This document shows positions 8,860-27,284 of a stretch of 64,000 bases of DNA, piece after piece. A program made the position numbers and the translations under genes. The number at the start of each line of letters is the position of its first letter. Within the stretch, counting starts at the first letter, position 1. The notes below the pieces were generated by a model that had not been told where the DNA came from, did not search any database, and saw nothing but the letters and a program-made list of their open reading frames with translations. Origin of the DNA: a virus. The stretch covers positions 1-64,000 of the IMG/VR virus record IMGVR_UViG_3300047374_000556; one strand, written 5' to 3'.

Positions 8860-8931
8860 CTACTCCCATAAAATATATATTATAATCAAAAGAAGCAATA
8901 ATGTCAAGCCCCAATTATGATTTTTCATCAT
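8860..8931 (-). CDS. possible 23-aa membrane peptide
   Basis: A 23-codon frame beginning with two ATGs that overlap the TGA of the 58-aa gene upstream, coding a short tail-anchored hydrophobic helix (NWGLTLLLLLIIIYILW). The promoter at 8879-8907 is embedded in it. The tight stop-start coupling supports it; the promoter overlap argues for caution. Confidence 0.35.
   Translation of the reverse strand: MMKNHNWGLTLLLLLIIIYILWE
8879..8907 (-). promoter_or_regulatory. near-consensus sigma70 promoter with a true leader
   Basis: TTGACA, 17 bases, TATAAT; the ATG at 8856 is 22 bases further on, with GGGAG seven bases before it. It contrasts with the leaderless type elsewhere. Confidence 0.8.
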
Positions 8932-11350: not shown

Positions 11351-11755
11351 TTATATTCTGACAGATTTTTGCTTATTTGTCAACTTTTTATTTGCACTTT
11401 GTTCGATAATATATTTATTCCCCCTATTAACTAGTGTTGATTCATATCTACTACTGAATAGTTTGTCTTTTAAGTCTTCTAAAACAATTTTATTATTTAA
11501 TTTATCGCAACAAGAAAATATATCAACTGCACAATAATTAAACTCATGCCATGTATGAATACTCATATGACTTTCTGCAATCACTAAGACTCCTGTGACC
11601 CCATAAGGACTGAAAGAATGAAATAGACTATTAACTATATTTGCGTTACCTAGTTTAGCAGATTCGATAAATATTTTTTTTATTAAATCAGAATCTTTTA
11701 AAATATCTTCATCGCAATTATAAAATTCAACTAATTCTTGACTACCTAAGTACAT
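11351..11755 (-). CDS. speD: S-adenosylmethionine decarboxylase proenzyme (copy 1)
   Basis: A 134-residue pyruvoyl enzyme making decarboxylated AdoMet for polyamine synthesis. The processing site is ESHMSIHTW near residue 60: the Ser becomes the pyruvoyl group, and the following His and the later Cys in VDIFSC match the prokaryotic 1B class, whose members are 110-140 residues. Second homologue at 13.0-13.4 kb. No spermidine synthase is visible in the window, so the product may feed the host enzyme. Confidence 0.9.
   Translation of the reverse strand: MYLGSQELVEFYNCDEDILKDSDLIKKIFIESAKLGNANIVNSLFHSFSPYGVTGVLVIAESHMSIHTWHEFNYCAVDIFSCCDKLNNKIVLEDLKDKLFSSRYESTLVNRGNKYIIEQSANKKLTNKQKSVRI
11355..11383 (-). 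promoter_or_regulatory. sigma70-like promoter, leaderless type
   Basis: TTGACA, 17 bases, CAGAAT, six bases, then the ATG at 11348. It lies inside the 3' end of speD copy 1. Confidence 0.65.
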
Positions 11756-11791: not shown

Positions 11792-11821
11792 GAAAAAATT
11801 ACTTCATCCCACCTATTTTAC

Positions 11822-12274
11822 TCATAATCGACTTTTTACTATTTTATTATAATATTCCTTATCCCAAAATTCATAATAATTTGTTTTATGTAATTTTTCA
11901 GAATATTTATTTAATTCAGATAATTTTTGTATTAACAGAATAGCATATTCTTTATTATTTGTCTCAATTCCATTTATTTTATTTATTTGATCAGGATGAT
12001 CCCATATTAACCAAAGATCTTTACTGCGTGAATACTTTTTATTTATTTGACAAAATTTTTCAAGCCATTCTGTGCTATATTTATCCTTGTCTCCATATAC
12101 AAGGTAAAGCATTGGATGCTCTTCATTTTCCATACATTCTGTAGCGTCAATCCAAAAGTTTGTAGACTCTATTATTTGCACTTTATCCAAAAAAGCTTTA
12201 GCAAAAGGGCATATCGCATGACCGCCAATCTTTTTTCTTTGCAGGGAAATATAATCAATATAATCTTTAATCAT
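11822..12274 (-). CDS. CPFA-motif protein of unknown function (150 aa)
   Basis: A 150-residue soluble protein with a KKIGGHAICPFAKAF segment near the N-terminus and IWDHPDQINKINGI, then YYEFWDKEYYNKI, later. Proteins with the 'CP(F/Y)AK' start and 'DHPD' middle occur in marine phage genomes, to my memory without assigned function. The conserved Cys could be catalytic or metal-binding. It overlaps the arginyl-transferase-like gene by eight bases, suggesting a shared pathway. Confidence 0.6.
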   Translation of the reverse strand: MIKDYIDYISLQRKKIGGHAICPFAKAFLDKVQIIESTNFWIDATECMENEEHPMLYLVYGDKDKYSTEWLEKFCQINKKYSRSKDLWLIWDHPDQINKINGIETNNKEYAILLIQKLSELNKYSEKLHKTNYYEFWDKEYYNKIVKSRL

Positions 12275-13031
12275 TTATAAAAAAATTTTTATCATCGTAT
12301 CTTTTTATTTTATCTAAATCTTTTGTTTTTTCAATTTTAGAATCTCTCTCGCATAACCATTTATAATCTTCTGTGTTATTCGACCACGCTTCTCCGTTCC
12401 AAAATTGAAACCCTTGGTAGTCAGACTTATATATACAAGCTTTTTCATACCCTACTCCTGTATACATATAGTCTTTATTATTTGCAATACAATAGTCTAT
12501 TTCTGCAAGGTTTGCATATTTGCCTAAATATAATTTTGGATTTTCATAATTCCACGCAAACTGCGTTGAGAAAACACTATTCTCTCCGACATCTCTCAAA
12601 AATGTAAAAGCAATAGGTTCGTCATTTAAATAATAAATTAAAAAATGTTTTCTCTCAATCTCTAAACTTAGTAGAGGCTCTAGCTTCCAAGGCTTAAAGT
12701 TTCTGTATTCAAAATATTTATTAAATATATCTTTTAAAATTTCTATATTTGCTTTATTCGCTTTCGTATATTTGACCACAATATCTTTGCATTTTTTTCT
12801 AGCCTTTCGACTACTGCGAGTATCAATAAATTTGCTTAAATCAATTCTTGTTTGTCGAGCTTGATACCAATGGGATTTTACTGCATTTTTAGGAGCAAAA
12901 TAGTCATCAGGTAACCATCCTTCCTGCAAAGCTCGCTCTTCTTCGTCTAACGGAACTTCTGCCATGCAATCAAAAAATAAATAATCGTATTCAGTGATTG
13001 CTCCTGAGTAATGCCTAAAATATATTTTCAT
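12267..13031 (-). CDS. aminoacyl-tRNA-protein transferase-like (ATE/Bpt) GNAT protein
   Basis: A 254-residue protein matching the arginyl/leucyl-tRNA-protein transferase layout: EGWLPDDYF..., a WYQARQTRIDLSKFIDTRSSRKARKK linker (the family's 'CxxC...RxxVxxFxxxRSQRR' region), then a GNAT-like half with KHFLIYYLNDEPIAFTFLRDV and YLGKYANLAEIDYCI...YMYTGVGYEKACIYK. Such enzymes attach an amino acid to protein N-termini to create N-degrons. The cysteine cluster of cellular members is absent here, so the substrate may differ. It sits between two AdoMet-decarboxylase homologues. Confidence 0.65.
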   Translation of the reverse strand: MKIYFRHYSGAITEYDYLFFDCMAEVPLDEEERALQEGWLPDDYFAPKNAVKSHWYQARQTRIDLSKFIDTRSSRKARKKCKDIVVKYTKANKANIEILKDIFNKYFEYRNFKPWKLEPLLSLEIERKHFLIYYLNDEPIAFTFLRDVGENSVFSTQFAWNYENPKLYLGKYANLAEIDYCIANNKDYMYTGVGYEKACIYKSDYQGFQFWNGEAWSNNTEDYKWLCERDSKIEKTKDLDKIKRYDDKNFFIND

Positions 13032-13438
13032 GCCTTGCTTTCATCAAACATTGACCATCCTTTAGTATTTCGTACTCTTCTATCTAGGAATTTTAACCCA
13101 AGAGATATTGGATGAAATTTTTTAATTTCATACTCAATTAAATGAGGGTCAAAATCTTTACAACTATAGACATCAAGTTGTAATAAATTCGGAGTTTTTT
13201 TCTCCCAAGAATGCAAAGATAAATGACTCGTTGTTATTAAACAGAACCCGCTAACGCCCTCGTTATTTTTTTCATCACATCTCACCGAGACAGGTTCATG
13301 CAAAACTTCCATGTCAATTAATTTAACAATTTTTAAAAGCCATTTATTTGTGAAATCTGTATTCGTAAATGGGGTCTGCTCGAAAGTAGCATTAACTAAA
13401 AGATGTTTATGTTCCACAAAATATATTACACTTACCAA
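13028..13438 (-). CDS. AdoMet decarboxylase homologue (copy 2)
   Basis: A 136-residue pyruvoyl-enzyme homologue beginning with FVEHKHLLVNA, close to the usual MxHxxxDxxG opening. The processing site reads TTSHLSLHSWE: the Ser, the following His and a later VYSC Cys are all kept, although the Glu before the SH is Thr. Diverged AdoMetDC homologues that decarboxylate ornithine or arginine are known, so the substrate of this copy is open. It overlaps the ATE-like gene by four bases. Confidence 0.75.
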   Translation of the reverse strand: MVSVIYFVEHKHLLVNATFEQTPFTNTDFTNKWLLKIVKLIDMEVLHEPVSVRCDEKNNEGVSGFCLITTSHLSLHSWEKKTPNLLQLDVYSCKDFDPHLIEYEIKKFHPISLGLKFLDRRVRNTKGWSMFDESKA

Positions 13439-13689
13439 AAGTTTAAAGTGATGTTTTCTCTGTTACATTTATGGTCTTTTATTTGCGTTAAAACAGTTCG
13501 TAGAATATTTATTTCATTCAAAGTTTTTTTAGATTTTCTAGCTTCATATTTCTTTTCAAGCTCTATAATTTTGTCTTGTATTATTTGCCTGTCAAACTTT
13601 CCTTTATATGACCAGCCTAAATCAAATCCTCTATGCAAACCTTTCTGATGAGCTTTTTCGAATTCATTATTTAAGCCGCTGTCATACAT
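13432..13689 (-). CDS. helical hypothetical protein (85 aa)
   Basis: An 85-residue basic, helical protein (MYDSGLNNEFEKAHQKGLHRGFDLGWSYKGKF...). The middle (IIQDKIIELEKKYEARKSKKTLNEINILRTVL) looks like a coiled coil. It is coupled to speD copy 2 by a seven-base overlap. Function unknown. Confidence 0.6.
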   Translation of the reverse strand: MYDSGLNNEFEKAHQKGLHRGFDLGWSYKGKFDRQIIQDKIIELEKKYEARKSKKTLNEINILRTVLTQIKDHKCNRENITLNFW

Positions 13690-13692
13690 GAT

Positions 13693-14145
13693 TCATTTTA
13701 AAACCCAAGTTTTTACATCCTTCACAAAATCTTCTGTTTTAATTATAGATATAATGTCTTTTCTATTTTTACGCTGATAAAGTCTATACAAAGCTTCTTT
13801 CGGGCTTGAAACAAAAGATCGATTTGTAATTTTAGATTTGCACCAATCTAGTAAATCTTGGCGACTTACTATCAAAAAATGTTTTGAATGCTCAAAAGCT
13901 ATGTAATCAGCTTTTCCACGCAACCAACCTTTATTGCCTCGCACATTTTGCAACTCTATCCAAATTTCATCGTGATTAAAAAAGGCATCAGACCTAGAGG
14001 TTTTCTTGAATCCTTTTACATCAATTAAAGAATCTCTAACTTTAAAATCCCAATGTTCGTGCATGTCCTGATTTTTTGAGGCTTTTTCGACACTCCAATT
14101 TCTGGACACACACATGTCGTAGAACCTTTTTTCACTACTATTCAT
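13693..14145 (-). CDS. PD-(D/E)XK nuclease-like protein (paralogue A)
   Basis: A 150-residue protein with the pattern EHWDFKVRDSLIDVKGFKK near residues 30-48, which fits a D...(D/E)xK metal site, followed by IWIELQNVRGNKGWLRGKADYIAFE, then YRLYQRKNRKD. The same order recurs in the protein at 31846-32328 (IWIEFADKHGRKGWVYGRAKFIAFE), so they are paralogues. The IWIE...GW...G.AxxIAFE core resembles phage nucleases that recognise DNA ends or lesions. Activity is inferred from motifs. Confidence 0.65.
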   Translation of the reverse strand: MNSSEKRFYDMCVSRNWSVEKASKNQDMHEHWDFKVRDSLIDVKGFKKTSRSDAFFNHDEIWIELQNVRGNKGWLRGKADYIAFEHSKHFLIVSRQDLLDWCKSKITNRSFVSSPKEALYRLYQRKNRKDIISIIKTEDFVKDVKTWVLK

Positions 14146-14340
14146 TTACCAATTTTTTATTATATTTGCGACTATAAAAAAACAAGTTATTAAATTAACT
14201 ATTACAATTAAACTTCTTAATAAAAGACTTATTTGAGCGTCTCTTAATGATAATATAGGTATATCAGGTTCATCATTATCTGTTCTTCCCACTCTATGAT
14301 CGAGAGTTCTAGCCCATATAAGCCAAAATTTTCTAAGCAT
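14146..14340 (-). CDS. small membrane protein (64 aa)
   Basis: I take the ATG at 14340 (MLRKFWLIWARTLDHRVG...), leaving two earlier codons out. The C-terminal half is one membrane span (SLLLRSLIVIVNLITCFFIVANIIKNW). The 'KxWxxWRxxLG...RxxIxxxNxxTxFFIxxxIIKxW' pattern is common in phages, function unknown. It lies one base before the nuclease-like gene. Confidence 0.6.
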   Translation of the reverse strand: MLRKFWLIWARTLDHRVGRTDNDEPDIPILSLRDAQISLLLRSLIVIVNLITCFFIVANIIKNW

Positions 14341-14734
14341 GATCAAGTTCTTTATTTGGCTTAAAAGAGTTCATAGTCAAGAACCAAAAAATTGTAGCAC
14401 AAACTTCTTCATCTGACAAACTTGACGAATTTACTATATTTGATCCCAAAACTTCTTGCCAAGGAGCTTCATTGAAATTATGAAAAAGCTTGCTTTTGGT
14501 ATGACGAAGCTCTGCACAAGGAAAATCTTCGCTTTGGAAATCTTTACAGAATCCAACATGGATTTCGTGCTTTGATCTTTGGGGTTGAGCTTGTAATAAG
14601 AAATCCCATGCACTTCTAGCTTCTACATCGATTTCTCTAATACTTTTAGGTTCTTCGTATTTAAGTTGGCTGGAATATAGTTTATTAAATATCTTTTTGT
14701 AAGATTGCTTATTTATAAGTTGGCTGAAATTCAT
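14333..14734 (-). CDS. hypothetical protein (133 aa)
   Basis: The frame can start at 14776, but that overlaps the upstream gene by 68 bases; the second ATG (MNFSQLINKQSYKK, 14734) needs only a 26-base overlap and is preferred. The middle (EARSAWDFLLQAQPQRSKHEIHVGF) and C-terminus are mixed alpha-beta without a known domain. Function unknown. Confidence 0.55.
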   Translation of the reverse strand: MNFSQLINKQSYKKIFNKLYSSQLKYEEPKSIREIDVEARSAWDFLLQAQPQRSKHEIHVGFCKDFQSEDFPCAELRHTKSKLFHNFNEAPWQEVLGSNIVNSSSLSDEEVCATIFWFLTMNSFKPNKELDHA

Positions 14735-14963
14735 TTTGCGGATTATTTGGATACATGATTCTTTTTTGAAAATCAATTAAAACATTTTGTCTTTCTATCG
14801 CTTCATGCTGTATTTTAATGGTATCTTTTAAATATGTTATTTCGTGATTCTGTTTAAAAATATAAAAAACTACACAACACCCGATTATAGTCAATAGCAA
14901 ATTTATTATTCTCTCTTGCACAAATAATATTACACTTTTATTTGTCCCATTTCTCAAGATCAA
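14709..14963 (-). CDS. membrane-anchored helical protein (84 aa)
   Basis: An 84-residue protein with a membrane span near residues 14-38 (ILFVQERIINLLLTIIGCCVVFYIF) followed by a charged helix of about 40 residues (YLKDTIKIQHEAIERQNVLIDFQKRI). The architecture resembles inner-membrane phage proteins with cytoplasmic or periplasmic coiled coils. A spanin role cannot be assessed. Confidence 0.6.
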   Translation of the reverse strand: MILRNGTNKSVILFVQERIINLLLTIIGCCVVFYIFKQNHEITYLKDTIKIQHEAIERQNVLIDFQKRIMYPNNPQNEFQPTYK

Positions 14964-15159
14964 CTCCCCTTTCTTCGCAAAGAGCTACGGCATAACCTAC
15001 TCTAAAAGAATGTTTGTCTAAAAAACACAAAAGCCCCATAATTATATATGGCTGAACTTTATAAAATCCAAATTCAAAAAATACTAAAAAACTAATTAAA
15101 ACATATGGCATAAACTTATTTAAAGAATATTCAAGAATAGATAGGAATTTATTGTTCAT
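14938..15159 (-). CDS. small membrane protein (73 aa)
   Basis: A 73-residue protein with two hydrophobic spans (FMPYVLISFLVFFEFGFY and PYIIMGLLCFL) and a soluble ending HSFRVGYAVALCEERGVDLEKWDK; 'HSFRVGYAxALCxERGVDLxxW' is a recurring phage pattern. It is led by the strong promoter at 15167-15195. Function unknown. Confidence 0.6.
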   Translation of the reverse strand: MNNKFLSILEYSLNKFMPYVLISFLVFFEFGFYKVQPYIIMGLLCFLDKHSFRVGYAVALCEERGVDLEKWDK

Positions 15160-15166
15160 GTTATAA

Positions 15167-15195
15167 ATTATAAGTGTTTATTTGCGAAATGTCAA
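15167..15195 (-). promoter_or_regulatory. near-consensus sigma70 promoter, leaderless type
   Basis: TTGACA, 17 bases, TATAAT, seven bases, then the ATG at 15159. Confidence 0.8.
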
Positions 15196-15202
15196 GAAAA
15201 AA

Positions 15203-15841
15203 TTAGTCAAAATATAAAGTAGTTTTATTATTGTATATACTATAAGTGTCTAACAAAAAATCTAAAGATTTCATTTTGTCACACAAATCATTAGCATAAG
15301 AATTATCAAAGACTTTAGAATTATTATTTAAGTTAATTTGATTAACATTTGCGTCATCTTTGTTCATGATTGTGTTGTCGATCCCTACGGAATATTCTTT
15401 AGATTTTACCATATAGTTGTTTTTGAAGTTCGCGCGATCTACCAAAAACTCTTCGCAGTAAATATTGCGATAATCTGAGCTTAATTGATAAAACTTTATT
15501 AAATGATTTAAATAATCCCAACCTACTCCATAATAAAAAAAATTAACTTTTGAATTATGAATATTGATATTTAAGAAGTTGAACAGCTGCTCGACTAAGT
15601 TGTAGAAGTATTTATTTTTAGTCTTTTTACCAAAAGCAAATCTTCCATAATTAATTAATCCTGAGTTATCAACTGATGGACAAAAGGTATACGCAGAGAT
15701 ATGCTCATTTATAAAAATATCTTTTTCATCTATATTTGAAATACATTTACTAATAAATAAATTTTCTTCAATAGATAGGTTTGAATTTAAATTAAAAAAA
15801 TACTTGCTATATAGATCAAGTTTATATTTAATTTGATTCAT
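15203..15841 (-). CDS. hypothetical protein (212 aa)
   Basis: The ATG at 15841 (MNQIKYKLDLYSK) overlaps the kinase stop by one base (TAATG) and is preferred over one five codons earlier. The product is 212 residues, Asn- and Tyr-rich (YYGVGWDYLNHLIKFYQLSS), without membrane span or known motif. Coupling to dNMP kinase suggests co-expression, not necessarily shared function. Confidence 0.65.
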   Translation of the reverse strand: MNQIKYKLDLYSKYFFNLNSNLSIEENLFISKCISNIDEKDIFINEHISAYTFCPSVDNSGLINYGRFAFGKKTKNKYFYNLVEQLFNFLNINIHNSKVNFFYYGVGWDYLNHLIKFYQLSSDYRNIYCEEFLVDRANFKNNYMVKSKEYSVGIDNTIMNKDDANVNQINLNNNSKVFDNSYANDLCDKMKSLDFLLDTYSIYNNKTTLYFD

Positions 15842-16416
15842 TATGCTAAAACGCATTGAATATCAGACAAAAAAGAGCGAGCAAAACCTACGCACTCTGC
15901 CATGCTGTCATCGCCAAACGTAGGCCAAGAAACAACAAAATCTCTATAATTCATAAGCTTTAACGACTCTCTCTTTTCTTCTTCATTAGCAGGAGCAACA
16001 GACTGTCTAATAATCTCCACGATAACTCCATCATTTTCTTTAATCCATGCAGCCTCATTTTCATACCTAACATCTGTAATAACAGGTATTTCGCTGTTAG
16101 CAGAACAATATTCAACTGAATCTTTTATTTTATTGATCCAGCAATTTTGATCTAACTTTCTTCTTATATGAGTCCCATAAGTCACTAAAAAAGGGCGGAT
16201 TAATTCTTTAGATTCATTTTCTTGAGTCCAAGCAGATATTCCTATGTTATCAAGCAAAAAAGGGTCGCATTCTTTTTTTAATTCATCAGCAAAAGCGAAT
16301 CTTCGAAAATCTGGTAGACCCATCTCTCTTGAAAGCATGTTAATGGCGGTAAAAAAAGTATCTTTACCACTTCTAGCGAATCCTGTTAATCCAATAATTT
16401 TGGGTAATTTATTCAT
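15841..16416 (-). CDS. deoxynucleoside monophosphate kinase (T4 gp1-like)
   Basis: A 191-residue P-loop kinase phosphorylating dNMPs. The Walker A motif GFARSGKDT is near residues 11-19; family phrases KELIRPFLVTYGTHIRRKLDQNCWI and VITDVRYENEAAWIK match phage dNMP kinases of the T4 gene 1 type. The Arg- and Asp-rich DVRYENE patch is characteristic. Together with ThyX it should raise the dTTP and dNTP pool. Own strong promoter at 16423-16451. Confidence 0.9.
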   Translation of the reverse strand: MNKLPKIIGLTGFARSGKDTFFTAINMLSREMGLPDFRRFAFADELKKECDPFLLDNIGISAWTQENESKELIRPFLVTYGTHIRRKLDQNCWINKIKDSVEYCSANSEIPVITDVRYENEAAWIKENDGVIVEIIRQSVAPANEEEKRESLKLMNYRDFVVSWPTFGDDSMAECVGFARSFLSDIQCVLA

Positions 16417-16422
16417 CTAATG

Positions 16423-16451
16423 ATTATAGATGAATTTAAATTATTTGTCAA
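16423..16451 (-). promoter_or_regulatory. near-consensus sigma70 promoter, leaderless type
   Basis: TTGACA, 17 bases, TATAAT, CATTAG, then the ATG of dNMP kinase at 16416. It overlaps the 3' end of the DUF1501 gene by four bases. Confidence 0.85.
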
Positions 16452-17740
16452 GATAAAATATCAAACAAAGGCTCGCCTTTATGGGCTATAGTAAAAGGTC
16501 TTCCTGACGGGGAATATTGATAATTATTTAAAGATAAACCAAGGGTATGAGCTATAGTAGCATTCAAATCTTCTGGCTTGATAGGTTTTCCTTCAACAGG
16601 AGATCTGCCTGTTTTGTCTGTCTCACCATAAGTAAATCCACCTTTCACTCCACCTCCTGCGAGAAAAGCTGTGAAGCAATAAGGCCAATGGTCTCTCCCG
16701 CCTCTTCCATTTATGTTTGGCGTTCTGCCAAATTCAGAGGTTAATACAACCAAAGTCTCTGATAAAAGCCCTCTTCTGTCTAAATCAATAAGAAGTCCGC
16801 TTAAAGCTTGATCGATATCAGCACAATTTGCAGCAACTCTTTCAAAGTTATTATCATGAGTATCCCAACCTCCTCGCGTAACTTCTACATACCTAACACC
16901 ATGCTCAACTAGCCTTTTAGCTAACAAGCAACCTTTACCGAAGTTAGTGTTTCCATAAAGATCACTTGCAGATGCTGGCTCTTTAGTGATATCAAAAGCA
17001 TTTAGATCATTACTATTCATTAATTTTATTGCGTCTTTATATAAGTCACTGTAAGCTCTTACTTGTTTTAATGGAAATTCTGTAGAAAAATTTTGATTCA
17101 ATTGCTCGGCAATAGATATTCTGCTTTGAAAATGCTCATGATCTAAATACGAAGCCATTTTACTATTAGCTAGACCTGAGGAAGGGTTGTTAATGGGAAG
17201 AGCGCCGTATTTAGACTCTAGAAAGCCAGCTCCGCCTCCTCCACCTCCAATCTTAACATTGCTAGGTATTGTTTTATTCATTGAACCTGAAAGTTTTGAC
17301 ACCCAACTCCCGAATGTAGGATGCACAATTGTGCCCCTCTTAAGATAACTAGTGTGCATTAAATAACTTGCTTGCATGTGGGCTCCTTGACTAGTATTCA
17401 TTGTTTTGATAATTGACCCAAGATGCATTAGTTCCGCTGTTTTTGGTAGATTTTCGGATAAAATAACTCCATCAGCGCTTGTTGCAATTGATTTGGTAGG
17501 CCCTTGAATATCAGGAGCGTCAGGCTTTGGGGCAAATGTGTCAAGATGCGACATCGCTCCTGACATATTTAAATAAATGACATGCCTAGCTGTCGGAACT
17601 CTAGTACTAGGCTCAAGAGCGCTCACTGTATTGTTAATATAAGCTCCTGCCATCGGCATAAGCCCTACTCCGAAGCATGCTTTTGCGGCATGCGCTATAA
17701 ATTCTCTTCTCCCTAATTCATCAATTGTATTTAAGTTCAT
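16448..17740 (-). CDS. DUF1501 sulfatase-like protein with twin-arginine signal
   Basis: I prefer the ATG at 17740 (MNLNTIDELGRREF), giving 430 residues, six codons shorter than the longest frame. The start is a twin-arginine signal (GRREFIAHAAKACFGVGL...AGA), so the protein should be exported folded. The body is DUF1501: HVIYLNMSGAMSHLDTF, GWDTHDNNF, LDRRGLLSETLVVLTSEFGRTPNINGRGGRDHW and an end GLSLNNYQYSPSGRPF. DUF1501 proteins are abundant in Planctomycetes and Verrucomicrobia, encoded beside DUF1549 proteins, as here. Exact substrates are not established to my knowledge. Confidence 0.9.
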   Translation of the reverse strand: MNLNTIDELGRREFIAHAAKACFGVGLMPMAGAYINNTVSALEPSTRVPTARHVIYLNMSGAMSHLDTFAPKPDAPDIQGPTKSIATSADGVILSENLPKTAELMHLGSIIKTMNTSQGAHMQASYLMHTSYLKRGTIVHPTFGSWVSKLSGSMNKTIPSNVKIGGGGGGAGFLESKYGALPINNPSSGLANSKMASYLDHEHFQSRISIAEQLNQNFSTEFPLKQVRAYSDLYKDAIKLMNSNDLNAFDITKEPASASDLYGNTNFGKGCLLAKRLVEHGVRYVEVTRGGWDTHDNNFERVAANCADIDQALSGLLIDLDRRGLLSETLVVLTSEFGRTPNINGRGGRDHWPYCFTAFLAGGGVKGGFTYGETDKTGRSPVEGKPIKPEDLNATIAHTLGLSLNNYQYSPSGRPFTIAHKGEPLFDILS

Positions 17741-17793
17741 AATATTATTATTACACATTTTAAAGAAAAATCAACACAAGTGTAATATAATAT

Positions 17794-18180
17794 ATGAGGT
17801 TTTCGCTTCTTTTTATATTAATATATATTTGTCTAGAAGCAAGGGTGGAAAGAAAAGATTTTCTAGATAATTGCGATTGGTGCAAAAATCAAGCTAAATC
17901 TACTCAACCGTTAGATCTTGGCGAATGGATGGCAAGATGCGGTAAAAAACCGAAAGGCTTGTGGTTCACAATGAAAACTTTGGGGAGAGTTTATGGAACT
18001 TACAAAAAATCTATTTCTAGAAGTTGGTTGTATTCTGAAAAATTAGGATGGATATATAATGCTCCAAGCTATAAAGGGTATTTTTATACAGAGAAATGGG
18101 GTTGGATTTATATAAAAGATGATATGATTTATTTTTTTAAATATAATAGATGGGATTACCTAACAAACATAAATTCATGA
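17794..18180 (+). CDS. secreted GWIY-repeat protein (128 aa)
   Basis: A 128-residue protein with a signal-like start (MRFSLLFILIYICLEA) and a C-terminal block of short aromatic repeats: SWLYSEKLGWIY, YFYTEKWGWIY, IYFFKYNRWDYL. This 'WxY...GWIY...' pattern occurs, to my memory, at C-termini of verrucomicrobial exported proteins. It lies between the DUF1501 and DUF1549 genes on the opposite strand, overlapping the latter by 25 bases. It may bind polymers or cell wall; that is inference. Confidence 0.75.
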   Translation: MRFSLLFILIYICLEARVERKDFLDNCDWCKNQAKSTQPLDLGEWMARCGKKPKGLWFTMKTLGRVYGTYKKSISRSWLYSEKLGWIYNAPSYKGYFYTEKWGWIYIKDDMIYFFKYNRWDYLTNINS

Positions 18181-20426
18181 CTATTAATTAATACCCATAT
18201 TATTTCTTTATATGCATCTTTCGTATTTTTTAAATTATCAGTAAATATCCTTAATTCTTTAGAAGTAGGCTCTCGGTTTAATATATATTTATAACCTACT
18301 GTTATTTTATCACTTAACGCCTTTTGGGATTCAATTGCTTTAATAACTTCAAAGTTTTTATTTTTCAATAGTCTTGTTTCAACGAAGCCGTTTAATAAAT
18401 TTAATACCTGTGTCGCCGAGGCGCTGTTTTCTGCATTTTCGATCTGCTCTCTATCTGAGCCACCAAACTCTCTGATTAAATGACCAATCGGAGCAGGAGA
18501 AGATAGTTCGGAGGCTCTAACTGAATTTCTATCTTTCACAAAATTCTGCTTGTATTGTTGCTCTCTGACTTTCTTTTGAGATTTGTATTTATCTACGCAA
18601 GATTCACAACAAAATGCTAAAGTTTCTCCATTTTCGTTTAAAGCTAACAACGTTGGGTCGATTGCTCTACCAGGCTTAATAGGACAATCAGTATTTATAG
18701 GTTTACCAAATTTTGTTTTACTTGCCTCTTTAGGCCTTTCAGTTTTATTTATTTTAGCCATTATATCTTTAAATAATTCTTCTCCAGTCATAGACGAAAG
18801 AGTTTCGAATTGTTCATAGCCTTTTGTATTCTGCTCTAATTTTCTAGAATCTATATTATCAAATGTTAAATTTACTAAAGAATCCCAAATTTGCTCCCCA
18901 CTCATTCTTTCTAATATCGGCCCTTGATAAAAATAAGGGACAGCTCCTTTAGACTGAGCTTTGGTATTTGGCCCTGCGATAATCCACTCAACTTCTACAG
19001 GCATAGATTGATCTTTATTATCCTTAGGTATTACATCTCTGGTTACAGACTCTTTTTGGAATGTTTTAGTGTTATACAATATTCTTAAAAACTCTCTTAA
19101 ATCATAATTTAAGGCAACCATGACTTTTTCTAGATGTAATTGCAATTTTGGGTCGGTAGCAAGAGTGTCATCGAACATATTATCAATTGGCTCTATTAAA
19201 GCTAATCCAAAAACTTCCTTCCACAAGCGATTTACAATAACAGCTGTAAATCTTGGATTTGATTCAGACGCCAACCAATTAGCATAAATTTCCCTAGAAC
19301 CTGCATTTGGAGCAACAGTTTTAATATCTACCTCTTTACCGAAAATCGTTTTCCCTAGTAAAGCTTCATTAGGTTTTGCATTATCATACTGATAATCTTT
19401 AGGCAAACTGATCTTTCCGTTACCTAAACTCGTTAATCCAGTTTGCAAAATATCTTGGATATCTCTTATGCTATTTTGTAGCTGTCTAGATTTTTGAGGT
19501 TGATCGGACTGCTCTAATTTTCTTCTTTCATCTCTCGCTAATCTATTTAAGACACTTAAATTTTCTGGACTTTTTGTTCTCAAATTAGTCGAACCACTTG
19601 TGAATGCAGCCATTTCGTAAAATTGTTTTTGAGTCCAACGATCAAAAGGATGGTCATGGCATTGGGCGCACTCGAGGCTTGTGCCTAAAAAAATACGTAC
19701 TGTGTTAGCCATGCTATCAAGAGGCATATTGACATCACGAGCAAAATAACTTACTCCTTCGTTGCCTTTAACCCATAGAGAGCCTGATGAGGATAACATT
19801 TCTCTAACCCATTCATCGTATGGTCTGTTATTTGATATAAACTCTTTTACATAATTCTTATAAGGCACTCCAGATATTCTATTGGTTAACCTATCTTTAA
19901 TTCTTAATATATCCGCCCAAAAATTAAACCAGTGACTTACATATCCTTCACTACCTAATAACTGATCAACTAATTTTGATCTTTTATTTTTATCTTTATC
20001 ATCAAAAAAAGAGTTTACTTCTGCTAAAGAAGGGGTCCTCCCGATAATTTTAAGATATGCTCTACGTAAATATATAGCATCATCGACCTCCTTATTTGGC
20101 CTAAGATTATATCCTCTGAGTTTTGCTTCAATTAAGCTATCAATATAATAAGCATGAGTTTTTAAATCTCTATCAGATAATGGTCTTTTAAATTTAGGCA
20201 AGGCTTCATGACTGGGTGGAAAATTATTTTTAATATAAGCTTGGTTGTCTTTTGTTAAAGAATCAATTGAAATCCTGAATAATTGCAGATCACTTGATCT
20301 TTTAATTAACGCGTGTGTAGCATTCGCCTCTACAATATCGCCTTTCAGATTTTTTCCGTTATTAAAATATAGCGTATCCCCAAAACAGAAAATTGAAGAT
20401 AAAAACAATAAGATTAAAATTTTCAT
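18156..20426 (-). CDS. DUF1549/DUF1553 protein with SHD1-like N-terminus and YHS/TRASH-like insert
   Basis: About 756 residues, starting MKILILLFLSSIFCFG (signal peptide), preferred over an ATG three codons upstream. The opening TLYFNNGKNLKGDIVEANATHALIKR resembles the SHD1 domain. Next comes DUF1549 with a haem-like CAQCHDHPFDRWTQKQFYEM, then DUF1553 (SNPRFTAVIVNRLWKEVFG, ALNYDLREFLRILYNTKTFQ). A Cys-rich insert (CPIKPGRAIDPTLLALNENGETLAFCCESCVDKYK in short pieces) looks like a YHS/TRASH metal site. DUF1549, DUF1553 and DUF1501 genes pair in PVC bacteria. Confidence 0.9.
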   Translation of the reverse strand: MKILILLFLSSIFCFGDTLYFNNGKNLKGDIVEANATHALIKRSSDLQLFRISIDSLTKDNQAYIKNNFPPSHEALPKFKRPLSDRDLKTHAYYIDSLIEAKLRGYNLRPNKEVDDAIYLRRAYLKIIGRTPSLAEVNSFFDDKDKNKRSKLVDQLLGSEGYVSHWFNFWADILRIKDRLTNRISGVPYKNYVKEFISNNRPYDEWVREMLSSSGSLWVKGNEGVSYFARDVNMPLDSMANTVRIFLGTSLECAQCHDHPFDRWTQKQFYEMAAFTSGSTNLRTKSPENLSVLNRLARDERRKLEQSDQPQKSRQLQNSIRDIQDILQTGLTSLGNGKISLPKDYQYDNAKPNEALLGKTIFGKEVDIKTVAPNAGSREIYANWLASESNPRFTAVIVNRLWKEVFGLALIEPIDNMFDDTLATDPKLQLHLEKVMVALNYDLREFLRILYNTKTFQKESVTRDVIPKDNKDQSMPVEVEWIIAGPNTKAQSKGAVPYFYQGPILERMSGEQIWDSLVNLTFDNIDSRKLEQNTKGYEQFETLSSMTGEELFKDIMAKINKTERPKEASKTKFGKPINTDCPIKPGRAIDPTLLALNENGETLAFCCESCVDKYKSQKKVREQQYKQNFVKDRNSVRASELSSPAPIGHLIREFGGSDREQIENAENSASATQVLNLLNGFVETRLLKNKNFEVIKAIESQKALSDKITVGYKYILNREPTSKELRIFTDNLKNTKDAYKEIIWVLINSHEFMFVR

Positions 20427-20464
20427 AACAATCAATAGACAATTATGATTAAATTACACCGTTT

Positions 20465-20629
20465 TTATTTCCACTTGCAATAATTCGGGTCTTCTTCTCT
20501 TTTGCGACGCATGTAATCTCGCTTCTGTTGCCTACGTTTTTCCTTGTCTGCTTCATCATATTTTTTTCTAGCTCTAGATAATGATTCTTTCCCTTTATCT
20601 GTTTGTTGGTATTTTTTATTTCTATCCAT
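20465..20629 (-). CDS. small basic protein (54 aa)
   Basis: A 54-codon basic, helical protein (MDRNKKYQQTDKGKESLSRARKKYDEADKEKRRQQ...). It overlaps the end of the acidic 79-aa gene by eight bases, supporting translation. Similar KY...TDKGKESLSRARKKY proteins occur in phages. Function unknown; nucleic-acid contact is plausible from the charge. Confidence 0.6.
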   Translation of the reverse strand: MDRNKKYQQTDKGKESLSRARKKYDEADKEKRRQQKRDYMRRKREEDPNYCKWK

Positions 20630-20861
20630 CTAGATTAAAATCGTCAAGGTTTTCATCATCTTCTTCTTCATCTGGCTCATCTAAATTAAAAACTATATCG
20701 TCTCCAAGTAACTCTTTAATTTTTTCCATCAAAGCTCCAGCTATTGTAAAAACATTAATGTCAAACTCTTCTAAATATCTATCACACATATCATCAAGAT
20801 CAAAACGAAATGCATCGGTTTGCTCATCAAAATCTCTTGGGCCAGTATATTTGTCAGACAT
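20622..20861 (-). CDS. very acidic small protein (79 aa)
   Basis: A 79-residue protein, acidic throughout, with DFDEQTDAFRFDLDDMCDRYLEEF and an extremely acidic tail (DEPDEEEDDENLDDF). It starts eight bases inside the end of the GDP-fucose synthase gene. Unknown function. The charge makes a nucleic-acid-mimic or chaperone-like role possible, which is speculation. Confidence 0.6.
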   Translation of the reverse strand: MSDKYTGPRDFDEQTDAFRFDLDDMCDRYLEEFDINVFTIAGALMEKIKELLGDDIVFNLDEPDEEEDDENLDDFNLDG

Positions 20862-21801
20862 TTTTAAGATACCAGTTGTATGTTTGGCGAATGCCTTCTG
20901 TTAAGGCTATTGATGGAGTAAAGCCAAATTTGAACATACGATTGCTGTTCATTAATTTTCTAAAAGTTCCATCTGGCTTCGTTTTGTCATATCTGATTTC
21001 CCCACGAAACCCTACTATAGATTTAATTATATTAGCTAATTCAAGTATAGAAAATTCTTGATAAGATCCACAATTTAAATGCGAAATATTATATTTATAA
21101 ATATCTTCGGCGTTAATTTTCTGAAGGCATAACAAAATTGCGCTCGCTAAGTCTCTTACATGAAGAAACTCTCTTCTTGGTTTACCTGAGCCCCAAATCT
21201 TAACAAACCCCAATTCATCTTGCTTCGCTGTGTGAAACTTATTGATTAACGCGGGTAAGACATGAGAGCTGTATAGGTCGAAATTATCATTCTCGCCATA
21301 AAGGTTGCATGGCATTATGGAATAAAAATTGTCTCCATATTGGTGATAGTAGGCTTCGCACATTTTGAGAGCTGCAATTTTTGCAACGGCATAAGGCTCG
21401 TTCGTTTTCTCTAGAAGTCCAGTCAGTAACTGCTCTTCTGTTATAGGCAGTTTTGGGCTTTTAGGGTAAATGCAAGAAGATCCTAAATTAATTAATTTTT
21501 TAACTGAGGAATTGTGAGCTGATTTAATTATATTTGTGGCAATTTGTAAATTATCATATAGAAAATCCGCTCTATAAACATTATTAGATTCAATTCCTCC
21601 AACTTTTGCGGCGCATAAAATCACTGCGTCAATTGAATTATTTTTAAAAAAGGAGTGAACTTTACTTTGGTCTCTTAAATCCAGCTCGCTTCTGGATCGG
21701 GTAATGATATTTTCATAACCAGATTTTTTGAGCAAATTAAGGACTGCGGAACCTACCATGCCTTTATGCCCTGCAATAAAAATTTTAGATTTTTTATCCA
21801 T
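20854..21801 (-). CDS. fcl: GDP-L-fucose synthase
   Basis: A 315-residue SDR enzyme converting GDP-4-keto-6-deoxymannose to GDP-L-fucose by epimerisation and NADPH reduction. It shows IFIAGHKGMVGSAV for nucleotide binding, LGSSCIYPK (Ser and Cys of the active site), NEPYAVAKIAALK (the YxxxK pair), CNLYGENDNFDLYSSHVLPA with a catalytic-type His, and REFLHVRDLA. It directly follows gmd with an eight-base overlap. The fucose branch would feed the downstream glycosyltransferases. Confidence 0.93.
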   Translation of the reverse strand: MDKKSKIFIAGHKGMVGSAVLNLLKKSGYENIITRSRSELDLRDQSKVHSFFKNNSIDAVILCAAKVGGIESNNVYRADFLYDNLQIATNIIKSAHNSSVKKLINLGSSCIYPKSPKLPITEEQLLTGLLEKTNEPYAVAKIAALKMCEAYYHQYGDNFYSIMPCNLYGENDNFDLYSSHVLPALINKFHTAKQDELGFVKIWGSGKPRREFLHVRDLASAILLCLQKINAEDIYKYNISHLNCGSYQEFSILELANIIKSIVGFRGEIRYDKTKPDGTFRKLMNSNRMFKFGFTPSIALTEGIRQTYNWYLKNV

Positions 21802-22846
21802 TTAAAATTGCATAATCATTATTATACATTTTAAGCACTAAATGTTCAAATGAAGTCTTTCGCTTCCAGCCTAACTCAGATTCTGCTTTAGATGGATCTC
21901 CGCAAAGTTTGTGGACTTCTGCTGGTCGATAAAACTTCGGGTCAACTTCAAAAAATAACTGTCCAGATTCGGTATAATATTTTTCTGAGTCACTTTCTCC
22001 TTCAGGATAAAATTTAATATCAGCATGACTTAAGCATGTATTTAAGAAATGTCTCACCGTAAACATTTCCCCACTCCCTAAAACATAATTCTCTGGCTTA
22101 TCTTGATTTAACATTAACCAAACTCCTTCCATAAAATCTTCTGCATCGCTCCAGTCCCTCTGAGCTTCTAAGTTGCCAAGTTTAAGAATCGGTAGAGGTT
22201 TATTATTTTCGAGGGCAATTTTTATCTTGGCAATTGTATGGGTGATTTTACGAGTAACAAAATCCAACCCTCTTCTCGAACCTTCATGGTTAAATAACCA
22301 GCCTTGCACTGCATATAGGCCATATGACTCTCTATAAACTCTAACGATATGCCTTGCGGCACACTTGGCTGCACCATATGGAGACTGAGGTAGTAGCGGA
22401 TGATTTTCATCTTGTGGCGTATATACGACATCGCCAAACTCCTCAGAAGAACCTGCGTTATAAAATCGGCAATGAGGAGCAAATCTACGGATAGATTCAA
22501 GTATATGCAACACCGAGCTTGCGTCTGTATCCCATGTTTGAATAGGGTATTCCCAGCTACCTGCAACGAAAGATTGAGCTGCAAAGTTAATAAAATAATC
22601 TGGCTGAATGTCAATGACTACATCTCGAATACTATGGGCGTCGTTTAAATCCATATTAATTAGTTGAAATCTAGGCTCATCTTCTAAATGCAAAATATTT
22701 TCATGATTTTTAACGCTAAGCCTGCGCGCAGTGCCGTAAAGCATGAAATCAGTTTTACCAAATTCTTGTTTAAATAATTTCAAAAGATAGTCCACCATGT
22801 GGCTACCATCTTGACCCGTTACTCCTGTTATAATTATTTTTTTCAT
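21794..22846 (-). CDS. gmd: GDP-mannose 4,6-dehydratase
   Basis: A 350-residue SDR dehydratase turning GDP-mannose into GDP-4-keto-6-deoxymannose. It has ITGVTGQDGSHMVDYLL for NAD(P) binding, NFAAQSFVAGSWE, NAGSSEEFGD, SPYGAAKCAARHIVRVYRESY (catalytic Tyr and Lys) and FNHEGSRRGLDFVTRKI, all Gmd phrases. It opens the sugar-nucleotide block; its product can go to GDP-L-fucose through fcl or, with the aminotransferase at 23.7-24.9 kb, to GDP-perosamine. Confidence 0.94.
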   Translation of the reverse strand: MKKIIITGVTGQDGSHMVDYLLKLFKQEFGKTDFMLYGTARRLSVKNHENILHLEDEPRFQLINMDLNDAHSIRDVVIDIQPDYFINFAAQSFVAGSWEYPIQTWDTDASSVLHILESIRRFAPHCRFYNAGSSEEFGDVVYTPQDENHPLLPQSPYGAAKCAARHIVRVYRESYGLYAVQGWLFNHEGSRRGLDFVTRKITHTIAKIKIALENNKPLPILKLGNLEAQRDWSDAEDFMEGVWLMLNQDKPENYVLGSGEMFTVRHFLNTCLSHADIKFYPEGESDSEKYYTESGQLFFEVDPKFYRPAEVHKLCGDPSKAESELGWKRKTSFEHLVLKMYNNDYAILNG

Positions 22847-22877
22847 TCTATAAAATTATATTACATTATTAAGGTTT

Positions 22878-23738
22878 TTAAAGTGGTGTATCTTTATTTA
22901 AGTCTTTTATCATTTCATTTAAATTTATATACTCAGGATAATCTCCGCAGTATTGTTTAAGTCCCTTAGGTAATGATGGATGCATATTAGGATACCCAAA
23001 GATATCATCAGATTTTATTTTTGATTTAAAATCTTCAAACTTATTCCAAACATTTTTAGTCCATTTTTCATATAGTGGAATATTATTCGAGTTTCCTGTT
23101 GGTGGTTTTGTGTAATGATTAATTTTACTCTTTACCCTAGTCTCACCTACCCATGCAAAATGATAACATGATTCATCTTCTACTTTACAACTATTGCAAT
23201 ATTGTGAAGAAATGTTGCAGTGTCCGTAAATATTTCCTGGTTTATGTCTCGCAATTCTAGAGAAAAAGTTCCATCTATCTGATTGCTCATCAACAGTGAT
23301 TGTTTTATGATCCTTTAAAAAAACATAATGATCTATTTCAATGGAGTTTACTTCTAGGTTTTTTTTAAAAATGTCATCAACTTTTTCAAGTAATGACTTG
23401 TTGAAAAATTCATCTAAATCAAAGCACCAAAAAGAATCAATATCATCCCGAACATAAGATGATCCAACTGCAAACATTTTTCTTTTCTGAAAAGAGCCGT
23501 CTCCTTTGAAATTTGTTACATCGGACAGATCAGTCTTTTCGATTAAAATAATTTTGCTATCTGGATCTGGATAATCTTTTATAAACTCATGAGATCCATC
23601 GGTAGAGAAATGGAAGTTTGGAGTTCCTACATTTAAATCATAAAAAATTAATTGATCAAAATTATCATACAGAAAATCCATTTTTTGTTTTAAAAATGGA
23701 AGTTCATTGTAAAGAATGCTAAAGTGACATTTTCTCAT
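22878..23738 (-). CDS. glycosyltransferase-like protein (286 aa)
   Basis: A 286-residue soluble protein starting MRKCHFSILYNELPFLKQKMDFLYDNFDQLIFYD. SFWCFDLDEFF near residues 100-110 resembles the DxD metal site of GT-A glycosyltransferases (family 17/92 type), and a Cys-rich CNISSQYCNSCKVEDESC segment lies later. It lies nine bases downstream of the aminotransferase gene. A transferase role is likely, the donor and acceptor unknown. Confidence 0.65.
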   Translation of the reverse strand: MRKCHFSILYNELPFLKQKMDFLYDNFDQLIFYDLNVGTPNFHFSTDGSHEFIKDYPDPDSKIILIEKTDLSDVTNFKGDGSFQKRKMFAVGSSYVRDDIDSFWCFDLDEFFNKSLLEKVDDIFKKNLEVNSIEIDHYVFLKDHKTITVDEQSDRWNFFSRIARHKPGNIYGHCNISSQYCNSCKVEDESCYHFAWVGETRVKSKINHYTKPPTGNSNNIPLYEKWTKNVWNKFEDFKSKIKSDDIFGYPNMHPSLPKGLKQYCGDYPEYINLNEMIKDLNKDTPL

Positions 23739-23747
23739 TTAGTAAAG

Positions 23748-24878
23748 CTATTGTTTAAAATAATCTTTAATATGTTTGCAAATGTATACAACCTCAGGCT
23801 TTGTCAATTCAGGGTAGCTGGGCAACATTAAAACGCTCTTCCATAGCTCATCTGCGACACAGTCATTAGGGTATTGACTTAAGTGTTTGTGCTGATTTAT
23901 TGGTGGGAACATACTGCGTGAGTCAATCTTGTTTCTGTATAAATTTAATTGTAAATCTGCCGCTGATTTTAATTTGCATTTTATAGAAAACATCCAATTT
24001 GAATGTGATGTATCTACTTCGGCTTCCTGAAAATCTACTTCATCAACCATGCACAATTCTTGTTTATAAGTATTGAATATTGTCCGCTTTTTTTCCAATA
24101 TTTCATCTAAGATTTCTAGTTGCCCTAGGAGTATGGCAGCTTGAACATTGGTCATGCGATAATTGTAACCTAATTTATTGAAAATATAATTACCAGAACA
24201 GTTTCCTTGATTTTTAACGGAGTTGAGGTGCTCAAATAATTCTTCGTCATTAGTGAAAACTGCTCCGCCCTCGCCACTTGTTATGGTTTTATTTCCAAAA
24301 AAAGAGACAGAAGAAAGTAATGAAGCGTTACCGCTTAAGGTGTTGTTGTACGAACCTAAAAAACCCTCGCAATTATCTTCAACAAAAATGGTACGATTAC
24401 TCCAATCGCGAATGCTGTTTTGAATTTTAGGTACATTTACTATATTCCCAAGATTGTGAACGACGAGAACGCCGATCATTCTTGCGTGATCTAAATGAGG
24501 CATGATGTCTTTTAGGTTATGCTCTGCATGTATTGCGTCAATATAGTTTGAGTTCCAGGTGTCTGGATTCATTTCGGCAACTCTAAAAATATAATCTTCT
24601 GACATCATAAAGCTATTCCACGCGGCAACATATACGCCGTTTGGAACAATCAATGTATCTATGTCAGGGTATTTGTGCTTTAGACCTATAGAAAGTAAAT
24701 GGGTCGCAGAAGTTCCGCTATTGGTTAAGAGGGCGAATTTAGATTGATTTTTTTCTTTAACCATATCTTCTGCCTGAGAGACGTATTTTCCTTGAGAAGA
24801 TATCCAGCCAGAATCTATAGCTTCGTGCGCATATCGCAGACTATTGGGAGGTAAATAAGGCTTGTAAATTGGTATCAT
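23748..24878 (-). CDS. DegT-family sugar aminotransferase, GDP-perosamine synthase candidate
   Basis: A 376-residue PLP enzyme of the DegT/DnrJ/EryC1/StrS family. MIPIYKPYLPPNS...AIDSGWISSQGKYVSQAED closely follows perosamine synthetases; later come LTNSGTSATHL, VEDNCEGFLGSYNN and FFGNKTITSGEGGAVF, the last with the PLP Lys. With gmd in the same block, conversion of GDP-4-keto-6-deoxymannose to GDP-perosamine is the natural reading; other 4-amino sugars cannot be excluded. A formyltransferase-like gene follows upstream. Confidence 0.8.
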   Translation of the reverse strand: MIPIYKPYLPPNSLRYAHEAIDSGWISSQGKYVSQAEDMVKEKNQSKFALLTNSGTSATHLLSIGLKHKYPDIDTLIVPNGVYVAAWNSFMMSEDYIFRVAEMNPDTWNSNYIDAIHAEHNLKDIMPHLDHARMIGVLVVHNLGNIVNVPKIQNSIRDWSNRTIFVEDNCEGFLGSYNNTLSGNASLLSSVSFFGNKTITSGEGGAVFTNDEELFEHLNSVKNQGNCSGNYIFNKLGYNYRMTNVQAAILLGQLEILDEILEKKRTIFNTYKQELCMVDEVDFQEAEVDTSHSNWMFSIKCKLKSAADLQLNLYRNKIDSRSMFPPINQHKHLSQYPNDCVADELWKSVLMLPSYPELTKPEVVYICKHIKDYFKQ

Positions 24879-24908
24879 TGTCTGCCGCTAAATTCGACTG
24901 ATATTTTT

Positions 24909-25217
24909 TTAATAAGTTTTGTGTTTTCGTTGAATAAACTTTCCGTCATCTAAATCTTTTCCAGATAAGCCAGATTTTATAATGTCTATGATTTTTTCAT
25001 CTATCTCATCGATAATTGAATTTCTTTGGACATTAAGGTCTGCAACTTTTTTGAAACAATTAAAGATCGCTTCTTGATCTTTTTCGTTAGACAAGTATTC
25101 TTTTTTGAATTGATCGAAATCCATGTGTCTAATTGCGTAATAAATCTCTTGATTATTCCACATTTTAAGATCAGCTGTAATTAATTTATCTATTAAACTG
25201 CCTATTGTATCTGCCAT
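24909..25217 (-). CDS. DUF4254-like small protein (102 aa)
   Basis: A 102-residue helical protein beginning MADTIGSLIDKLITADLKMWNNQE, which matches the opening of DUF4254 proteins found in LPS and polysaccharide loci. The form here is shorter than typical members. Preceded by a TATATAATAATATT box ending at the ATG. It sits inside the sugar block, which fits a glycan-related role; no reaction is established. Confidence 0.65.
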   Translation of the reverse strand: MADTIGSLIDKLITADLKMWNNQEIYYAIRHMDFDQFKKEYLSNEKDQEAIFNCFKKVADLNVQRNSIIDEIDEKIIDIIKSGLSGKDLDDGKFIQRKHKTY

Positions 25218-25263
25218 AATATTATTATATAGTTAAATTTATTTATTTCCATAATTTTAAAAT

Positions 25264-25965
25264 TTAAAGTTCATTTATCGACTTAATTTCTTTCCCTTTA
25301 TATGTTGCACATTTTAAAGGAGGGTATATCATGGCTCTTATAAAACGCTCTTTTTTGTCAATGGCCCAGGATTCATCTATTTCTCCGCTATGAGGGCAGC
25401 CTCTTTTATTATATGTTATGGTTCCTTTTTGTTCTGAGCCTGCGTAACCATTTTCAATTAACGATAACACTTTATTGAAAAATTTTAAGGCTTCAAACAT
25501 TGTTCTTTGATATAAGGTTTCTTGAGTATCGAATTCCTCTATTAATACTCTTTCTTGAAGAATTATTTTACCATCATCGATTTTTTCATTCATGAAGTGA
25601 TATGTAAAGCCAGCTTCTTTATCTCCATTTATTAAGGCCCAAGTTAGACTACTACAACCTCTGTATTTTGGCAATAACGACGGATGGAGATTGAAGCTGT
25701 TTTTTGTCAATACCTCCGCTGGAATGATATAAGAGTAATATACTGAAATCACTATGTCTGGATTAAAAGGAAGGTTCTCTTTTTTAATTTTTTCTAAAGA
25801 ATAATTTATTTTTAATTTTTTACAGTAGTTTTCCATATCATTAATATAATAAGGTCTTCGCTCTGTATAAACATATAGATTTACATCTTTTCTCGAATGC
25901 AGGATCTCTAAGGCTTTGCAGCCTGCCCAGTTTGTTCCGCATAATATAACGTTTTTTATTTTCAT
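25264..25965 (-). CDS. sugar N-formyltransferase-like protein
   Basis: A 233-residue member of the methionyl-tRNA formyltransferase-like superfamily using N10-formyl-tetrahydrofolate. The active core reads FNLHPSLLPKYRGCSSLTWALINGDKEAGFTYHFM, with the Asn, His and downstream DDGKII Asp of the family. It is too short to include an anticodon-type domain, unlike Fmt. With gmd and a perosamine synthase-like gene alongside, GDP-perosamine N-formylation (as by WbkC in Brucella) is a reasonable inference. Confidence 0.78.
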   Translation of the reverse strand: MKIKNVILCGTNWAGCKALEILHSRKDVNLYVYTERRPYYINDMENYCKKLKINYSLEKIKKENLPFNPDIVISVYYSYIIPAEVLTKNSFNLHPSLLPKYRGCSSLTWALINGDKEAGFTYHFMNEKIDDGKIILQERVLIEEFDTQETLYQRTMFEALKFFNKVLSLIENGYAGSEQKGTITYNKRGCPHSGEIDESWAIDKKERFIRAMIYPPLKCATYKGKEIKSINEL

Positions 25966-27283: not shown

Positions 27284-27284
27284 T

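Follow-up and report, generated by a model that had tools for sequence, protein, structure and literature searches.

Phages related to the one described here have repeatedly captured, kept and exchanged a pair of bacterial genes encoding a DUF1501 protein and a PSCyt2/PSD1 (DUF1549/DUF1553) protein. We studied this pair in a 64,000-nucleotide stretch (the window) of the 64,361-bp IMG/VR virus record IMGVR_UViG_3300047374_000556. Phylogenies show that the pair is derived from the host and was captured by phages on several separate occasions. Comparisons between relatives show that it has been swapped between phage backbones, and both genes are under strong purifying selection in phages. The repeated capture, keeping and swapping of one pair suggests that it does something that the virus needs while multiplying. 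Few protein families of the Planctomycetes-Verrucomicrobia-Chlamydiae (PVC) bacteria are as greatly expanded and as poorly understood as DUF1501 and PSCyt/PSD, and the recurrent independent capture of one orthologue provides evidence from natural selection on which copy matters.

A Pfam profile search confirmed two intact minus-strand genes in the window (Table 1). The match of the first to PF07394 reaches 362 bits, against a cut-off of 27, and covers profile positions 1-389 of 390. Its partner matches PF07583 with 155.8 bits (cut-off 29.8) and PF07587 with 87.5 bits (cut-off 28.5); the open frame of this gene runs over 18156-20435(-), with an ATG at 20426, where an earlier first-pass annotation, made from the sequence alone, had put the start. 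With all Pfam scores above the cut-offs, the family names given in that annotation hold. The same is true of the flanks that it described, a deoxynucleoside monophosphate (dNMP) kinase on one side and a sugar-nucleotide cluster on the other, and of the twin-arginine leader that it placed on DUF1501, since R17 and R18 are invariant in 51 aligned DUF1501 proteins and conserved at approximately 98-100% in 116.

As IMG/VR is built from metagenomes and the record is linear and unassigned, an assembly artefact or host contamination could have placed the pair among virus genes, but all other lines of evidence make this extremely improbable. The window encodes lambda-like tail proteins (J, K, I and L homologues), a Pol III alpha-type polymerase, DnaB, a primase, ClpA and a transfer-messenger RNA (tmRNA). 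It is collinear with a separate 193,844-bp virus contig (G002), with 95-99% identity over 58.1 kb, and a single 11,041-bp block of 98.65% identity (window positions 11821-22861) includes both genes along with their flanks (98.7% across the pair). G002 also encodes the terminase large subunit, rIIA, a UvsX-like recombinase and NrdB. Because it is collinear across the pair and has these hallmark genes, the pair lies in a large tailed phage with no assembly join. This join test, which is independent of read coverage, bears out the condition under which the first-pass annotation called the genes auxiliary, namely that the contig is a single phage. A protein search with DUF1501 returned 35 virus loci, and the number rose to 52 virus contigs with a profile search, so that matches are not confined to chromosomes. 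The virus loci examined adjoin phage replication genes, and the same arrangement is found in separate contigs of up to about 205 kb. In addition, the base composition of the pair is phage-like, and its sequence diverges by 21-40% from every sampled host copy. On the basis of the relatives' loci, the collinearity with G002, the hallmark genes and the base composition, we ruled out a chimera or contamination.

The survey of the phage group was seeded from the polymerase rather than from DUF1501, and comprised 50 records, each 40 kb or longer, that were scanned with Pfam. DUF1501 is present in 26 of them and PSCyt2 in 17, and PSCyt2 is never found alone (17 out of 17 records with PSCyt2 also have DUF1501). 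Among the 17 records with a length of 100 kb or more, DUF1501 occurs in 11 and PSCyt2 in 6. The absences are weak evidence, because most surveyed records are fragments. Presence of the pair is scattered on the polymerase tree (9 changes for 'none', 7 or more of them forced), and the cassette has therefore been gained, lost and moved. No tblastn match to either protein was found in the annotated phage genomes of INPHARED, and PHROGs contains no match to either family; within this analysis, the phage copies are thus known only from uncultivated phages.

The closest cellular proteins come from metagenome-assembled and single-cell genomes of marine Opitutales/Opitutia (Verrucomicrobiota), with 60-79% identity, followed by those of Planctomycetota, with 40-49%. 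The PVC type assigned to the pair at first pass is therefore supported. The number of DUF1501 genes in 28 Opitutales genomes ranges from 6 to more than 45 per genome, and only one in each genome (subfamily A) is of the phage type. In the GTDB family of G051, exactly one A copy is present in 36 of 42 genomes (60-79% identity), and a sister copy, B (47-51%), likewise occurs once in most genomes. The DUF1501 of the surveyed phages belongs to subfamily A in 22 out of 26 cases; the remaining four copies (G021, G033, G039 and G040) fall into other subfamilies and are further captures.

In the DUF1501 trees, type-A phage copies form five clades lying among and beside host clades. The clade of the window (n = 16) has TMED40-type Opitutales as its sister group, L073-L079 are grouped with the L017-L036 clade, and L247/L249/L251 group with the newly added hosts G079-G086; two further clades have no host match among the sampled genomes. 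A single phage clade is rejected by the approximately unbiased (AU) test (p-AU 9e-65, and 7e-48 without the deepest clade), for groups named after the data had been inspected. In three clades the phages captured the PSCyt2/PSD1 partner along with DUF1501, and the DUF1549 tree contains three phage clades. One of them, L017-L023, is nested with hosts that match those of its DUF1501, and hence the pair travelled together in this clade. We also considered a derivation of the deep phage clade (L255-L276) from host subfamily B, which was discarded because, after adding 12 B copies, B formed a separate clade and all main phage copies grouped with A.

In the host locus, DUF1549 comes first, then DUF1501 and tri-haem PSCyt1, and in most cases SufS is next. 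The neighbours in Opitutales include SufS in 25 out of 28 loci and a sulfatase in 19 out of 28. In the Planctomycetota relatives, the two genes are adjacent in 51 out of 52 cases and the other host neighbours are not constant. Judged from these arrangements, DUF1501 and PSCyt2/PSD1 are the conserved core of the locus. A search for phages carrying more of the host operon found no homologue of tri-haem PSCyt1, SufS, sulfatase, c554 or glyoxalase in the phage loci examined.

Selection on the pair was measured among close phages. Pairwise ratios of nonsynonymous to synonymous divergence (dN/dS) are approximately 0.02-0.05 for both genes, with synonymous sites saturated or nearly so, and the phage copies have no stop codons. 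These values contradict the idea that the pair is neutral passenger DNA (a moron), picked up by chance and free of selection. DUF1501 is lacking from about half of the contigs of the group, as a passenger would allow, but the same orthologue has been captured repeatedly among dozens of paralogues and the haem and ligand residues are invariant, which leaves this explanation very improbable. Exchange between backbones is seen when the pair is compared to the polymerase. L017 and L020 have synonymous divergences (dS) of only 0.20 and 0.07 in the pair, whereas their Pol III alpha polymerases share 82% amino acid identity with saturated dS. Similarly, the window and L004 share 91% identity in DUF1501 and 64% in the polymerase. 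The G+C content at third codon positions (GC3) of the window copies (0.24-0.27) is like that of other phage genes (0.25-0.30) and below that of the host copies (0.35-0.45), and the pair has therefore long been resident in phage. The L017 copy has an intermediate GC3 of 0.34.

Judged by its modelled fold, the DUF1501 protein belongs, as a distant member, to the alkaline phosphatase superfamily. Its AlphaFold2 model has a predicted local distance difference test score (pLDDT) of 84.5, with low confidence in the leader region, and the top Foldseek matches of this model are all sulfatases and alkaline phosphatases (E to 3e-8, probability 1.00, template modelling (TM) score 0.35-0.42). Lipoteichoic-acid synthases are also among the fold matches. 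Of the polar residues that are invariant among DUF1501 orthologues and paralogues, the phage protein has every one, with H127, D299, H301, E342, R345, D356 and H357 among them; like R17 and R18, these seven are conserved in the phage, orthologue and paralogue groups. By sequence, no convincing relative with a solved structure was found for either DUF1501 or PSCyt2/PSD1, and sequence matches to HtrA were dismissed as a glycine-rich coincidence.

The PSCyt2/PSD1 partner has a hydrophobic, Sec-like N-terminal leader, MKILILLFLSSIFCFG, read by eye only. The motif CA[QM]CH[DN]HPFD is kept in all partner copies of the phage and host alignment, and reads CAQCHDHP in the window. A fold search with DUF1549 gave no whole-chain match, only small pieces resembling an SHD1/Sm-like N-terminal part and a helical phycobilisome-linker/DUF4214-like part. 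The C-terminal half contains a cysteine-rich YHS/TRASH-like segment, present once in the window's clade, once or twice in most hosts, and missing from the other two DUF1549-carrying phage clades; the host segment matches the TRASH profile weakly, below its cut-off. In the Opitutales loci L060-L087, the Cys region of DUF1549-A has either two FCCxxC repeats or one FCCxxC and a second CxxCH. From the alignments, this region of the host protein looks like a modular slot that phages trim.

We favour, with a confidence slightly short of even, the explanation that large (up to approximately 200 kb) phages of marine Opitutales use the pair as an auxiliary module, derived from the host, to sustain an exported redox/hydrolase step that is limiting during infection. 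The host DUF1501-A would be a metal-dependent hydrolase exported through the twin-arginine translocation (Tat) pathway, with a sulfate ester, a phosphate ester or an envelope glycan as candidate substrates, and would have the haem protein of the periplasm as its working partner, together with the tri-haem cytochrome encoded in the operon of the host. When infection stops host gene expression, the exported step would become limiting. The phage would then supply the subunit whose renewal is most pressing, always DUF1501 and in about two thirds of cases also the cytochrome partner, while the tri-haem partner, the c-type cytochrome assembly and the Tat machinery of the host would remain in use. 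Energy or nutrient supply might thus be kept going, as with psbA/psbD in cyanophages.

The main rivals are superinfection exclusion and nutrient scavenging. In the former, which we consider rather unlikely, the enzyme pair would act together with a beta-barrel protein and with GDP-fucose and glycosyltransferase genes to change surface glycans and block re-infection. DUF1501 has a twin-arginine export leader and its partner a Sec-like one, GDP-fucose genes flank the pair in the window, a barrel gene is directly beside it in L004, L007-L011, L013, L016 and L034, and glycan sulfatases and lipoteichoic-acid synthases have folds similar to that of DUF1501. Moreover, other bacteria have DUF1501 linked to a chitin synthase and to a sugar epimerase (PMC5122149). 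However, the GDP-fucose and barrel genes adjoin the pair only in some relatives, and nearly every host-family genome already has the orthologue, so that the pair by itself should not create a new surface. Since the phage brings what the host already has, supplementing a limiting function in infection fits better than changing the envelope. The first-pass annotation had proposed auxiliary genes that may alter the host envelope: phylogeny, selection and recurrence bear out their auxiliary nature, whereas the single-copy orthologue in the probable host fits an envelope change less well than the supplementing of an existing function.

Phages also carry phoA- and sulfatase-type auxiliary genes, which encode exported hydrolases of the alkaline phosphatase superfamily. 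By comparison, DUF1501 forms a family of its own and is accompanied by a haem protein. As a phosphatase or sulfatase, DUF1501-A might, in the manner of cyanophage phoA/pstS, release phosphate or sulfate outside the cytoplasm, with PSCyt2/PSD1 as an accessory. The fold, the conserved D/H ligand-like residues and the SufS and sulfatase neighbours of the host locus are in line with such scavenging, but the invariant haem partner and the tri-haem third gene of the host are left unexplained, and the two neighbours are not kept in Planctomycetes. We judge it unlikely.

Several observations also weigh against the maintenance of a limiting exported step, our preferred explanation. Origin and selection follow from the trees and substitution rates, but the redox/hydrolase role is inferred from the remote fold and the motifs, because the families have no assigned biochemical function. 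The pair is known here from its genes, and its expression in infection is predicted. Marine Opitutales are probable hosts according to gene phylogeny, not observed infection. About half of the contigs of the group are without DUF1501, although most are fragments. Finally, two phage clades have lost the C-terminal Cys segment, and the phage version may therefore differ in function.

Cyanophages have psbD only where they have psbA, and both genes were gained several times (PMC2984593). The likeness to the pair described here extends to host core genes, a second gene that occurs only with the first, several independent gains, swapping and purifying selection, and speD is found in both groups of phages. 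In contrast to our case, in which there are genes alone and a heterotrophic host, the function of photosystem II is known and phage D1 was detected in infected cells. By analogy, the pair could be the Verrucomicrobiota counterpart of D1/D2 of photosystem II, that is a fast-turnover, rate-limiting exported redox complex that limits phage yield, a possibility that we put forward tentatively. If this is true, phage capture would point to the one core member among the dozens of DUF1501 paralogues that are typical of PVC bacteria. The pair offers a test case for psbA-type host maintenance in heterotrophs.

When compared to the chromosomal pair of Verrucomicrobiota and Planctomycetes (PF07394 with PF07583/PF07587), the phage pair has the same genes, order, orientation, signals and motifs. 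It differs in that the downstream tri-haem PSCyt1 and SufS are missing from the phage loci examined, one or all of the Cys-rich C-terminal segments are lost, third codon positions are A+T-rich, and the clade of the window has gained an antisense 128-amino-acid ORF (open reading frame). The minimal unit delineated by the repeated phage capture is DUF1501 first and PSCyt2/PSD1 second, and transfer can do without the tri-haem third gene. This unit constitutes a two-gene target for biochemistry and a marker for marine Opitutales phages.

Compartmentalised PVC bacteria have a genomic DUF1501 module (Kamneva et al. 2012, according to PMC4452313 and PMC4960237) that consists of chromosomal clusters with the same signal-peptide-bearing DUF1501 family as the phage copies, and the passages of these two articles that describe it do not mention phage copies. 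A study of freshwater Verrucomicrobia stated that nothing was known of PSCyt gene function (PMC5615132), and we found no functional study in the literature since 2018. The literature searched contains no description of DUF1501 or PSCyt2/PSD1 as phage genes, and only incidental mentions of DUF1501 with phage, one of them a weak match of 61 amino acids. Auxiliary host genes in phages are already known; within INPHARED, PHROGs and the literature searched, this gene family and host group are new.

Table 1. The gene pair and neighbouring features in the window
Feature	Position	Strand	Evidence
DUF1501, 436 amino acids, Tat-signalled, Opitutales subfamily A orthologue	16448-17758	-	PF07394 (362 bits), fold search, tree
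N-terminal twin-arginine leader region of DUF1501 (R17 R18)	17624-17758	-	Alignments
PSCyt2(DUF1549)-PSD1(DUF1553), predicted exported mono-haem protein	18156-20426	-	PF07583 and PF07587, alignment
CAQCH haem c attachment motif of PSCyt2	19656-19670	-	CxxCH kept in full-length phage and host copies
YHS/TRASH-like Cys segment (CPIKPG...FCCESC) in DUF1553 half	18597-18686	-	Alignment
Small ORF of 128 amino acids with hydrophobic leader, antisense between the pair	17794-18180	+	Same-place homologues
Deoxynucleoside monophosphate kinase (flank)	15841-16416	-	PF21448; PHROG 139, E 6e-31
Perfect sigma-70-type promoter pattern TTGACA-N17-TATAAT, upstream of kinase	16423-16451	-	Pattern scan
GDP-L-fucose synthase-like epimerase (flank)	20854-21801	-	PF01370
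GDP-mannose 4,6-dehydratase (flank)	21794-22846	-	PF16363
Outer-membrane beta-barrel-like ORF, GYASDFFYRG motif	29734-30387	-	tblastn neighbourhoods of relatives

The promoter that the first-pass annotation had noted next to the kinase has a perfect pattern, but it begins within the 3' end of DUF1501, and its target is the kinase rather than the pair. Allowing at most one mismatch, the pattern occurs at 9 sites in the window against 1.4 expected, a six-fold enrichment that none of 100 shuffles reached. Perfect sites are four, all on the minus strand (8879-8907, 15167-15195, 16423-16451 and 32985-33013), and they are probably phage promoters read by the host sigma-70.

The antisense ORF between the two genes is, like the YHS/TRASH-like segment, an addition to the first-pass annotation. 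It has homologues with 58-100% identity at the same position in L002-L005, L007 and L013 (58-66% in L004, L005, L007 and L013), and some members of the phage clade of the window have retained it. The protein has repeated G-W-I-Y motifs, with no match in Pfam or PHROG and no homologue seen in host loci. The barrel-like ORF also has no match in Pfam or PHROG; according to tblastn, its homologues in the relatives listed above lie directly beside DUF1549 or DUF1501. Window positions 22862-28640, a sugar/glycosyltransferase block, have no nucleotide match in G002, which has other ORFs there, and appear to be a hypervariable surface-glycan cassette.

Four virus records have further, unrelated DUF1501 genes of other subfamilies (L022:12917-14251, L271:6814-8193, L272:8240-9523 and L273:7982-9256). 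Their neighbours encode a TSP3-repeat protein (L272 and L273), an HMA-domain protein (L272), a radical SAM protein (L271) and a 561-amino-acid protein with a hydrophobic N-terminal segment (L022). In L022, two different DUF1501 genes are approximately 1.6 kb apart.

Elsewhere in the window, the tmRNA (46184-46581(-), tag ANNYMATKTVLKLLA, 131 bits in Rfam) is accompanied by a ClpA-type ATPase (52243-54690(-)). The window also encodes SpeD, an S-adenosylmethionine decarboxylase, and what by eye looks like a second SpeD (11351-11755 and 13028-13438(-)); speD is a cyanophage auxiliary gene too. A UV-endonuclease-like gene and a diverged second copy, also recognized by eye, lie at 6349-7359 and 34073-35176(-).

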